A DNA stretch of 64,000 nucleotides, from contig CAMVGU010000001.1 of NCBI GenBank assembly GCA_947167105.1, positions 186,001 to 250,000 on the forward strand. Direction: 5' to 3'. The stretch comes from an uncultured Selenomonas sp. GTDB taxonomy: Bacteria; Bacillota; Negativicutes; Selenomonadales; Selenomonadaceae. Below, piece by piece: positions 38,962-46,086 of the stretch. The position numbers and the translations under genes are program-made. Numbering within the stretch: position 1 is the first letter of the stretch; each line of letters opens with the position of its first letter. Under the pieces are notes generated by a model, which ran no database searches, was not told where the DNA came from, and was given only the letters and a program-made list of their open reading frames with translations.

Positions 38962-40551
38962 CTACTTAGCACCGTAATAGGCAAAATTCAGCATGGTGAT
39001 ATCATCGAACTGTTCGGCCTCACCCACAAAGGCATCCATGTGCTTCTTCACCAGTTCCAGGGCCTCCCTTGGCCCTGCCTCCGGCTTCTCGTTTAATGCC
39101 TCCTGCAGACGCTCAACTCCAAACAGCGTCTCCTCCTTGTCGATGGCCTCGGTAACGCCATCGGTGCAGACAAAGAAGCTGTCACCGGGCTGCAGGTCGA
39201 ATTCCTGCTCCTTGAAGCGGGCATCTTCCATCATCGCCACCCCAGGGCCATGCTTGCCCACAATGTGCTCATATTTCCCACCGGCTCGTCTTACCATGGG
39301 GCTGCCATGCCCCGCATTTGCCACCATGCCCTTGCCCGTAGAGATTTGCAAGATGGTCAGCCAGACTGTCACGAACATGCCTGCCTCATTGCCTTCGCAG
39401 AGCTGGTTGTTTACGTCATACAAGATTTTGGCAGGAGAGAGGCTGTTGCTGACCTGGGTTCTGTTCTTGATCAAGGTCTTGGCAATTACCATAAAGAGCG
39501 CCGCCGGGACACCCTTGCCGGAAACATCTGCCATCACCACTGCCACATGGTCATTATCCACCATGAAGAAATCATAGAAGTCACCGCCCACTTCCTTGGC
39601 AGGTACAGAGCTGGCATAGATATCGAATTCCGACCTCTCCGGGAAGGGAGGGAAAATCGACGGCAGCATGTGCATCTGTATATCTGTCGCCACATTCAGC
39701 TCCGTCGCTATGCGCTCCTTTTCCCTGGTGGCCTTCTCGAAATCCCGCATATAAGCCTGGAGTTCTTTGGACATTGTGACAGCGGAATTTGCCAGGCGCT
39801 CGATTTCATCGCCTGTGCGCAAATCTATTTCCAAAGATTCCCCCTTTCGCATCTTCTGCGTCGCATATTCTTCCAAGGAGGCATTCAGGGCCAGCAACGG
39901 ACCGATGATTACCCGCGAGATTTCACGATAGAATATACAGCCTCCCAGCAGCATAATGGCTACCATGAAAACCGCAAACATATAGAGGAAACGATCTATT
40001 TCTTCCTCTACTTGATCCATGGCCAGATCAACCCCTACCAGGGCCACACTATTTCCTGCTGTATCAATGATTGGCGCATAGGCAGAGGCCACATAGCCGT
40101 ATTCATCGTTGTTCGTGACCAGCAGCGGAGGTATTCCCCCTTCTTCGGTTGACATAGCCTCCTTCATATACTTGTCCCCGCCCTGGTAGTAAGCTTCAGC
40201 AAAACCCAGTATGTCTATATCCTTTTCCTGGGCTCCGCTGGCCGTCCATATATAGACATAATCATTTTTCCGGGGAACCACCACATACAGGTATTTGACC
40301 CGCAGCATACTCCGCATATGCTCTAAATATTTATATGTTTCCTCATAGGCAGTATCCTTTTGCAAAGTTTTTTCATATTTGCCCACGGGGGCTGCACTCA
40401 GTCGCTCTGCCACAAGACACCCGTAGTTGTAAGCCATTTCAGTATACTTCTGCTCCATATTGCTGCGATAATAGCCAGGCACAGCAAAGCCCAAAATAAC
40501 GCATAGCAACGCAAGCAAGGCAAATAACCTGCCCAGGAATTTTTTCTGCAA
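38962..40551 (-). CDS. Membrane PP2C/SpoIIE-type serine phosphatase with HAMP
   Basis: A 529-residue receptor-like phosphatase. Two transmembrane segments (about 8-28 and 190-212) flank an extracytoplasmic Cache-like sensor. A HAMP domain and coiled coil lead into the PP2C_SIGMA catalytic domain with the metal-binding motifs KEVGGDFYDFF (about 320), MADVSGKGVPAALFM, FVCTDGVTEA and QFDDITML. Such enzymes usually dephosphorylate an STAS-domain anti-anti-sigma factor; none is nearby. It sits between the formyltransferase homologue and GNAT with 9-12 nt gaps, so it is translated from the same transcript. Confidence 0.87.
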   Translation of the reverse strand: MQKKFLGRLFALLALLCVILGFAVPGYYRSNMEQKYTEMAYNYGCLVAERLSAAPVGKYEKTLQKDTAYEETYKYLEHMRSMLRVKYLYVVVPRKNDYVYIWTASGAQEKDIDILGFAEAYYQGGDKYMKEAMSTEEGGIPPLLVTNNDEYGYVASAYAPIIDTAGNSVALVGVDLAMDQVEEEIDRFLYMFAVFMVAIMLLGGCIFYREISRVIIGPLLALNASLEEYATQKMRKGESLEIDLRTGDEIERLANSAVTMSKELQAYMRDFEKATREKERIATELNVATDIQMHMLPSIFPPFPERSEFDIYASSVPAKEVGGDFYDFFMVDNDHVAVVMADVSGKGVPAALFMVIAKTLIKNRTQVSNSLSPAKILYDVNNQLCEGNEAGMFVTVWLTILQISTGKGMVANAGHGSPMVRRAGGKYEHIVGKHGPGVAMMEDARFKEQEFDLQPGDSFFVCTDGVTEAIDKEETLFGVERLQEALNEKPEAGPREALELVKKHMDAFVGEAEQFDDITMLNFAYYGAK

Positions 40552-44732: not shown

Positions 44733-44789
44733 AACCATAAAAAAGGACAGGCTGCTCTGTAACATGAGCCGCCTGTCTTTTTTATGGTT
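44733..44789. terminator. Large bidirectional terminator
   Basis: AACCATAAAAAAGGACAGGC pairs with GCCTGTC-TTTTTTATGGTT around a GCTC/GAGC inner stem. A- and T-runs flank both sides, serving the symporter and the convergent small gene. Confidence 0.85.
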
Positions 44790-45024
44790 GAGAACTGTTT
44801 TTAAATACGTCCTTCAGGCCTTCAGGATGCTGCCCGCCAAAGGCTCTTTGCCCGGCAGTGCCCAGATTCCCGGAACTGCCTGCCGCCGTAACAAGCTGCA
44901 GCTCGTCCAGGCTCAGGGCCCTGGGCTTTTTTCGCTCCAACTTAAGCCGCAAATACAGGCTGTCCCTGACCTTGCTGAAGCGGGAAAAATCAATTGCTGA
45001 CAATTCTTGTTCGATGTCTGGCAT
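44782..45024 (-). CDS. Small leader-peptide-like protein
   Basis: An 80-residue protein. Residues 10-35 are a basic amphipathic helix (IDFSRFSKVRDSLYLRLKLE), followed by LSLDELQLVTAAGSSG near 37-52. That D-E-L-x-x-V-x-A-G pattern resembles double-glycine or NHLP-type leader ends of ribosomally made peptides, and similar short proteins sit beside ECF sigma genes in Negativicutes and Clostridia. No cysteine-rich or clearly processed core follows; the tail is GQRAFGGQHPEGLKD-like. AAAGGAGGT precedes the ATG. Function is unknown; it is the last gene of a partly decayed locus. Confidence 0.6.
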   Translation of the reverse strand: MPDIEQELSAIDFSRFSKVRDSLYLRLKLERKKPRALSLDELQLVTAAGSSGNLGTAGQRAFGGQHPEGLKDVFKNSSQP

Positions 45025-45058
45025 AGCGGCACCTCCTTTCCTCGTCTGGTAACATAGT

Positions 45059-45214
45059 TCAGGGATTGTAATCCTTGCCCAGCTTATTGGCTACAAACTT
45101 CAGTGCCTCCTGATGAGTGACCAGCTTGCCGTCAATCCTGTACTCATTGCCGTTTCTTCCTTTGCCATGGTGATATACCCCTTCTATCCACTCAGCTTCG
45201 CTTTGAGAAGTTTG
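45059..45214 (-). pseudogene. Startless ORF remnant between sigma factor and leader-like gene
   Basis: A 51-codon frame without a start codon, ending at 45059. The peptide (EAEWIEGVYHHGKGRNGNEY, then YRIDGKLVTHQEALKFVANK) has normal protein-like composition, unlike the other frames. I do not recognise the family. It looks like the 3' end of a gene whose 5' part was lost, in the same orientation and between two locus genes. Confidence 0.4.
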
Positions 45215-45277
45215 TTATCTTGCTTTCTGTCCTTTATACGCTGGCAGGGGCAAAAATGTTACAGCCTGAGTAAAAAA

Positions 45278-45826
45278 TTACAAGATTTTTTTCAGCTTCT
45301 CAATTGCGCGGGACTGGGCTGTCCTGACGCTGCCGCTGCTCATGTTCAGTATCGCGGCTATTTCCTGATGACTGAGCCCCGACCAGAAGCGCAGAGTCAG
45401 TATCCTCTGCTCCCTCTCCGAGAGACGGCTGATTGCCGCAAGCAGCTCCGCGCGACCCTCAGAACGCAGCAGCCTGGCTTCCGGGCCTGCCTCCTTTGAG
45501 GCCAGGGGGCTGCCTTCGGCTTCAAGAAATTCCTCCCAGGAGACACAGGGCCTCTTACTGCGAGTATAGTCTACCAGCGCATGGCTGGCAATAGCAAACA
45601 GCCAGGTAGAGAAAGCCCCCTTGCTGCTGTCATAATCAGCAAGCTGGCGGTTCATTTTCAGGAATGTGGTGCTGGTCACATCATCTGCGTCTGCTGCATT
45701 CTTCAATCTGGCATAAATGAAGTTATACACCCTGGGAAAAAAATATACATATAGTTCCTCAAAGGCTGCCTCATCCCTGACCGCCCGCTGTGCCAGCATA
45801 CTGTAGTACAAGCTCTGCTCCATCAT
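45278..45826 (-). CDS. ECF-type RNA polymerase sigma factor
   Basis: A 182-residue sigma-70 family factor with only regions 2 and 4. Region 2 spans about 15-85 (FFPRVYNFIYARLKNAADAD, then FSTWLFAIASHALVDYTR) and region 4 about 125-178 (LSEREQRILTLRFWSGLSHQ, then EIAAILNMSSGSVRTAQSRA). No anti-sigma gene is adjacent. The start ATG overlaps the stop of a decayed ABC-exporter gene by 3-4 nt, so the sigma gene was once translated from the same mRNA. It may control the leader-like gene downstream, but its promoter targets are not readable with certainty. Confidence 0.9.
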   Translation of the reverse strand: MMEQSLYYSMLAQRAVRDEAAFEELYVYFFPRVYNFIYARLKNAADADDVTSTTFLKMNRQLADYDSSKGAFSTWLFAIASHALVDYTRSKRPCVSWEEFLEAEGSPLASKEAGPEARLLRSEGRAELLAAISRLSEREQRILTLRFWSGLSHQEIAAILNMSSGSVRTAQSRAIEKLKKIL

Positions 45827-45980
45827 GCCACCTGCCTTGCCACTAACTGCGAGAACAAGCCTCCCGCTGCAACCAGTTCCTCATCTGCCCTGCTCAACAA
45901 TGCGTCCGTCCTCCAGTACAAGGATGCGGTCAGCATCCCTGATGCAGGCGGTGCGCCACCACGATGCAGGTGCATTTCAT
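45823..45980 (-). pseudogene. Decayed ABC exporter ATPase, C-terminal stump
   Basis: Read leftward, the end of an ABC ATPase can be pieced together across two frameshifts: TCIVVAHRL (the H-loop), then IRDADRILVLEDGRIVEQGR after an apparent 5-nt loss, then EELVAAGGLFSQLVARQVA after a 2-nt loss, stopping at 45823. The Walker A, signature and Walker B parts are gone. An ATG at 45980 with AAAGGAG in front is joined almost directly to the H-loop, which suggests a large internal deletion. The sequence type matches peptide/bacteriocin exporters such as MsbA-like or NHLM-type ATPases. Confidence 0.75.
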
Positions 45981-46086
45981 TTTTGTGGCTCCTTTCCGCA
46001 GCCAGTAAATAAAAGTAACCCTCCCTAAAGTATTTCTCTTTTCTCCAAAAATTCCTCCCTCATGAAAAAAATCTTTGACGCTACCC
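45981..46086 (-). promoter_or_regulatory. Leader region of the decayed exporter/sigma locus
   Basis: This purine-rich stretch holds two GGGAGG repeats 34 bp apart and, leftward, AAATACTTT followed 10-15 nt later by GGTTACTTTT. It could be an autoregulated ECF promoter with its 5' leader, but I cannot fix a -35/-10 pair. Confidence 0.25.

Follow-up and report, generated by a model that had tools for sequence, protein, structure and literature searches.

In a 64,000-nucleotide stretch of DNA from an uncultured Selenomonas sp. of the gut or rumen, here called the window as a whole, an ECF sigma factor gene and a gene for an 80-residue protein stand beside the broken end of an ABC transporter. 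Which export system was lost here, and what are the two surviving genes to each other? Gene content, promoter conservation, the common domain and motif of the small proteins and their association with exporters could be read directly. From these, our main reading, to which we assign a probability of about 0.58, is that the locus is an NHLM remnant keeping its sigma factor and a partner derived from an anti-sigma factor, the partner bearing an exporter motif through which transcription would be coupled to export in a FlgM-like manner.

In transcription order along the minus strand (45983-44782), the locus consists of an ABC transporter tail in three frames, the ECF sigma factor, a startless remnant and the 80-aa gene (Table 1). 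The three pieces of the transporter stump are collinear with residues ~851-905 of the NHLM ABC2 protein, with E-values down to 8e-9 in tblastn, and alignment to intact NHLM ABC2 recovered the 5-nt and 2-nt losses that the preliminary description of this DNA had proposed. The match runs through the very C-terminus of ABC2 and stops exactly where that protein stops, at RQVA; an importer origin was therefore rejected, and the stump belongs to an exporter. All pieces named in the preliminary description are present and nearly all of its details hold; in the decayed peptide-export locus that it described, the exporter piece is the tail of an NHLM ABC2 (TIGR03797) with broken frames. About 850 ABC2 residues are absent and the genes for the peptidase-ABC, HlyD and MFP components are all lost from the window, the locus itself containing no part of an NHLM exporter beyond that tail. 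The startless ORF, also called a remnant before, shows weak likeness to the C-terminal half of cargo proteins (E 0.01-0.2, phmmer against 21,752 ORFs), and its matches are mostly cargo ORFs that are preceded in relatives by a promoter of the window type. Exporter and local cargo are lost, whereas sigma factor, promoter and partner are intact, and in the window genome the pair of sigma factor and partner has survived the loss of its own exporter.

Table 1. Features of the window that bear on the locus, with their positions and the evidence or remarks for each.
Feature	Position	Strand	Evidence or remark
Remnant of NHLM/NHLP export ABC transporter, TIGR03797-type ABC2	45826..45983	-	Last ~55 codons, two frameshifts; tblastn with intact ABC2 proteins from relatives
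Stump piece 1	45983-45945	-	KMKCTCIVVAHRL
Stump piece 2	45955-45887	-	..IRDADRILVLEDGRIVEQG
Stump piece 3	45882-45826	-	EELVAAGGLFSQLVARQVA
ECF sigma factor gene, BldN-like, 182 aa, intact	45278..45826	-	Pfam Sigma70_r2 and r4; member of a supported sigma clade
Predicted sigma promoter TGTAAC-N17-CGTATA, TGTAACATTTTTGCCCCTGCCAGCGTATA	45263-45235	-	ECF-type; exact motif match between the sigma and 80-aa genes; overlooked in the preliminary description
Startless remnant of exported cargo protein, C-terminal half	45059..45214	-	phmmer, weak matches
80-aa gene, intact	44782..45024	-	Members in 100 of 189 Selenomonadaceae genomes; D, L, A and A never vary; linked by profile to long homologues
Hairpin	44733-44789		Between the 80-aa gene and a converging 481-aa transporter gene; overlapped by the end of the 80-aa ORF
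529-aa protein, SpoIIE-type phosphatase half	38962-40551	-	Homologue of export-locus phosphatases (335 bits)

The sigma protein has regions 2 and 4 above the Pfam cut-offs (1.6e-15 for r2 and 5.7e-16 for r4_2) without region 3, which makes it an ECF sigma factor; against TIGR02952 it scored 131 bits, under the cut-off of 206. As had been noticed earlier, its ATG overlaps the stop codon of the stump. It retains 50 of the 55 residues that are conserved in at least 90% of its clade.

Intact relatives, which had been anticipated in sister genomes, were found as complete loci across Selenomonadaceae. We searched 60 related genomes with the sigma factor and with the 80-aa protein, the resulting loci overlapping, and inspected 20 regions. 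The set conserved in these comprises an RND-type adaptor, HlyD (TIGR03794), a C39-peptidase ABC (TIGR03796) and ABC2 (TIGR03797), often with TolC, further an ECF sigma factor, STAS proteins and SpoIIE-type phosphatases that have HAMP/Cache domains; small cargo genes of the VAGG kind, several per set, and one member of the 80-aa family are also present. Locus L047, for example, exceeds the curated cut-offs with 979 bits against 853 for TIGR03796, 757 against 709 for TIGR03797 (its intact ABC2 homologue, L047:7580-10294) and 234 against 156 for TIGR03794. The neighbourhoods thus contain the intact ABC transporters and peptidases that had been looked for, while no modifying enzyme is consistently present. 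Moreover, the window's own genome has two remaining NHLM exporters, which the preliminary description had overlooked: contig C23 bears a complete second locus with a sigma factor of a different type (37% identity), TolC, four cargo-like genes and a family member, and contig C22 bears the other exporter. In three more loci (L133, L134 and L135), a third, distant sigma type is accompanied by MFP-HlyD-ABC1-ABC2, and the family member there, itself distant (27-29 bits), still ends ELSEEELTRLAAAGN. The SpoIIE-type protein of the window lies ~4 kb from the 80-aa gene, with unrelated genes intervening.

The sigma factor very probably controls the 80-aa gene, as judged from a conserved promoter sequence. 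Of the first 16 loci, 10 have the motif TGTAAY-N16/17-CGTA ahead of the small gene, against 0.28 expected from shuffling. When the sigma factors were placed in a tree of 66 rows, 29 of 34 loci within one clade had the motif before the homologous small gene and 0 of 32 outside did, and the motif label changes 3 times on the tree versus 21.9 times when shuffled (0/500 shuffles); the window sigma falls inside this clade. Several genomes also have this motif ~50 nt ahead of dispersed VAGG cargo genes, and contig C19 of the window's own genome carries an intact dispersed VAGG cargo gene of 110 aa with the sigma promoter. Since the count within that genome is not significant (3 matches, the window's included, against 8 for a reversed-pattern control), the argument rests on position and phylogeny, and the motif is informative only as TGTAAY and by its position before genes. 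A strict SigW-like motif was tried across whole loci and dropped, as shuffled sequence contained it more often (9.35 versus 4 in the loci). As none of 12 MFP genes has the promoter motif upstream of the exporter operon, we make no claim that the sigma factor controls the exporter. At another place in the same genome (L098, contig C33), the sigma promoter recurs as an exact copy, and hairpin-like sequence stands where its cargo gene has been lost. In other sigma clades (L151, L170, L196 and L061), TGTCAY-N16-(G)CATA-like sites were seen by eye before small genes or cargo; possibly this is the promoter of a sister sigma clade.

The 80-aa gene is intact as first described, with an open frame and an AGGAGGT ribosome site, and belongs to a true family. 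Among the Selenomonadaceae genomes the best E-value of the family is 1e-29, and TIGR03796 is above its cut-off in 102 of the 189; in the wider class only two more genomes match the family, both from one other family of bacteria. The protein is composed of a shortened anti-sigma-like helix block (DFSRFSKVRDSL), a leader-type motif (LSLDELQLVTAAG) and an unconserved tail. Over 86 members, the conserved blocks read L-x3-L-x3-DFS-x3-V[KR]-x-x-L-x3-L and LS-[DE]-[DE]-LD-x-V-x-AAG-[NT]-P. The leader-like D-E-L-x-x-V-x-A-A-G motif pointed out before is therefore real, with D, L, A and A invariant, though it seemingly sits on a regulator. At the double-glycine position, the Selenomonadaceae protein has AA/G and not GG; linker and tail vary, the tail being charged, unconserved and 10-30 residues long. 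The tail in the window is longer than those of its relatives and its ORF ends in a hairpin, so the 3' end may have been altered. A weak model of the window protein predicts helices at residues 4-9, 13-16, 18-32 and 39-47 and a disordered tail; no solved structure was matched, a low-confidence model drew nothing in Foldseek, and NCBIfam and Pfam gave no match at E<=1 and hence no known precursor or anti-sigma family.

We then asked which neighbour the small protein follows. Within 10 kb, a sigma gene accompanies 70 of the 86 members and an exporter ABC gene 56; sigma without exporter occurs in 16, exporter without sigma in 2 and neither in 14, in a sample that was drawn from fetched loci, partly picked through sigma hits, and is not unbiased. 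The arrangement that the preliminary description had named as speaking against it, a sigma factor and small gene with no exporter, is thus present in part of the family. Distances between the small proteins correlate with those of the sigma factors (r 0.83; partial 0.67 given ABC1), compared with -0.04 for ABC1 given sigma and 0.32 for HlyD. By sequence divergence, the 80-aa protein follows the sigma factor more than the exporter. In genus g21, the small gene also occurs in extra copies (L157 and L166) that have neither sigma nor exporter nearby and adjoin Nif11-like cargo with VAGG-type motifs.

Longer homologues bear on the origin of the small protein. In another Negativicutes family, two 124-aa homologues (L277 and L278) begin no more than 1 nt from the stop codon of sigma and have ~40 extra N-terminal residues, the motif ..ELNFVTAAG and a CxxC-type tail, with an NHLM exporter nearby. 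A sigma-based contig scan supplied the downstream genes of 39 related sigmas, and the two-sequence profile of L277/L278 matched a membrane protein from Anaerolineales (L202) and, from Syntrophomonadaceae, a protein of 102 aa (L205) that ends ..DEDLDMVAGG.. and whose locus has ABC2, a sigma factor, Nif11/NHLP-type precursors and a predicted radical-SAM gene (precursors and radical-SAM gene named by eye). The motif takes the canonical VAGG form of cargo leaders in L205 and L317-L319. A phylum-wide search gave more short motif-bearing forms as well as membrane forms of ~300 aa, almost all of them encoded immediately after a sigma gene of the same type. The latter have the N-terminal domain of the short forms, one membrane segment and DUF4367, of which no mention was found in the literature searched; from this architecture (beside sigma, one membrane segment, outer DUF4367), we regard them as anti-sigma-like. 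The zinc-ribbon-like CxxC..CxxC tail after the motif, seen in L277, L278, L286 and L287, hints at metal or redox input there.

The N-terminal domains of the soluble and membrane forms were joined by hhalign at 98.2% (E 4e-13), and the Selenomonadaceae family was joined to the long short-forms at 97.4% (E 4e-11). Since the latter alignment holds from about residue 26 onward, the window protein is a shortened version. Of the anti-sigma-like domain, the Selenomonadaceae form retains the second half only; by itself, this half gives a weak match to the membrane form (1.9%, E 0.01) and a modest one to the long soluble form (23.9%). An NHLM exporter lies within the 10-kb flanks of 8 of 10 motif forms versus 0 of 7 membrane DUF4367 forms (Fisher p 0.002, some of the compared proteins being related pairs). 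Like an anti-sigma factor, the small protein is encoded beside a sigma factor, and the conserved promoter suggests that it is regulated by it. Most likely, the 80-aa partner is derived from an anti-sigma factor in which an exporter leader motif has replaced the membrane segment.

In the mechanism that we propose, an NHLM-type locus (peptidase-ABC, ABC2 and HlyD) would have lost its exporter and cargo and kept the regulatory pair. The sigma factor would transcribe cargo and its own partner from the TGTAAY-N16/17-CGTA promoter, sigma would be held by the conserved helix block at the partner's N-terminus, and the leader-type motif, which the C39 peptidase of the exporter recognises on cargo, would lie in the partner's C-terminal half. 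Where the locus is intact, partner and cargo would compete for the exporter, which would bind or cut the partner. A free exporter would then set sigma free and more cargo would be made, a cargo backlog would let the partner accumulate and shut sigma off, and the partner level would report free export capacity. The window pair may act in trans on the C19 cargo gene, using the C22 or C23 exporter. Sigma binding, C39 recognition or cleavage, the direction of the feedback and the present function are the parts of this scheme that we infer. Its extension to a soluble anti-sigma family in several Bacillota lineages, with an exporter cleavage signal in place of membrane anchor and outer sensor, the peptidase-ABC as sensor and exporter availability versus cargo load setting sigma activity, is offered tentatively, at slightly below even odds.

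The motif that suits this mechanism could also belong to an exported peptide precursor, pheromone- or RiPP-like, with a ~48-residue leader cut at AA/G, a tail that acts outside and a sigma factor that controls its production. Indeed, LSLDELQLVTAA conforms to the double-glycine type of leader, AA standing in for GG, the small gene is co-regulated with cargo and on C23 follows four cargo-like genes, and the sigma-less copies adjoin Nif11-like cargo. However, conservation resides in the N-terminal block and the motif and not in the short, variable tail, divergence tracks sigma, the gene persists beside sigma where an exporter is absent, its domain is common to membrane anti-sigma-like proteins, and a consistent modifying enzyme is missing. 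We therefore consider a precursor unlikely, including the RiPP precursor of a new peptide product suggested at first, and on the best reading the actual cargo peptides are the other small VAGG genes. From the autoregulated secreted-peptide system of the preliminary description, a true exporter and an own sigma factor very probably driving the small gene are retained, and the 80-aa protein as leader-core precursor is no longer the preferred reading. Its usual home in exporter loci and the leader-type motif in common with cargo would also suit an adaptor or chaperone guiding cargo to the peptidase domain of the exporter instead of a sigma regulator; this is very unlikely given that the small protein diverges in step with sigma rather than with the peptidase ABC, that 16 of 86 members stand beside sigma with no exporter, and that homologues are sigma-adjacent membrane proteins.

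The remaining question is whether the window pair still works. Sigma factor and 80-aa gene are both on long branches and the tail of the latter is atypical, so both may be decaying too, functionless now like the stump and the cargo remnant. The adjoining exporter and cargo are destroyed, the second promoter copy on C33 is without its cargo gene, and sigma misses 5 of 55 conserved residues. Nevertheless, both ORFs are open with key motifs intact, the promoter matches exactly, one dispersed cargo gene that has the promoter is intact and sigma-partner pairs without exporter recur in relatives, which makes full decay somewhat unlikely.

Compared with known systems, the intact relatives have the same HlyD, peptidase-ABC, ABC2 and Nif11-like or VAGG cargo as NHLM/NHLP export (Haft et al. 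2010, PMC2887384). Sigma factors are not mentioned in that paper, whereas here an ECF sigma factor, a promoter regulon and a sigma-linked small protein belong to the locus. Double-glycine leaders of the ComA/PCAT class have the LS-x-x-E-L-x-x-V-x-[GA][GA] motif in common with the small protein, in which, unlike in these leaders, it stands behind a conserved sigma-linked domain and before a short unconserved tail. Membrane anti-sigma factors usually pass on their signal by being cut in the membrane. In the flagellar system, FlgM, the inhibitor of sigma-28, is handled by the export machine, which couples transcription to export. The likeness to FlgM is one of proposed logic; the exporter is a peptidase-ABC here and flagellar type III export there, and no sequence relation is claimed. 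ECF sigma/membrane anti-sigma pairs such as RpoE1/TolB (PMC3397946) likewise have the partner directly downstream of sigma and a short N-terminal sigma-binding domain, the latter presumed here, but in our locus the exporter leader motif takes the place of membrane segment and outer sensor. Residues 1-39 of Tt-TolB interact with the RpoE1 sigma of T. tengcongensis in yeast two-hybrid (PMC3397946), a precedent for a very short sigma-binding segment. In the literature searched, which most subscription journals lie outside, no earlier description joins an anti-sigma factor with double-glycine, C39 or PCAT export or with RiPPs. New here are the clade-specific promoter and the reading that the 80-aa protein is probably no RiPP precursor.

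NHLM exporters with Nif11/VAGG cargo are widespread, and little is known about the timing of cargo production. The readable sigma promoter motif gives a direct handle for listing cargo regulons in rumen and gut Selenomonadaceae, and the culturable Selenomonas ruminantium ATCC 12561 carries several such loci. If the proposed mechanism is true, the peptidase-ABC would read a sigma inhibitor, and the FlgM problem of matching synthesis to export would have a second, independent solution.
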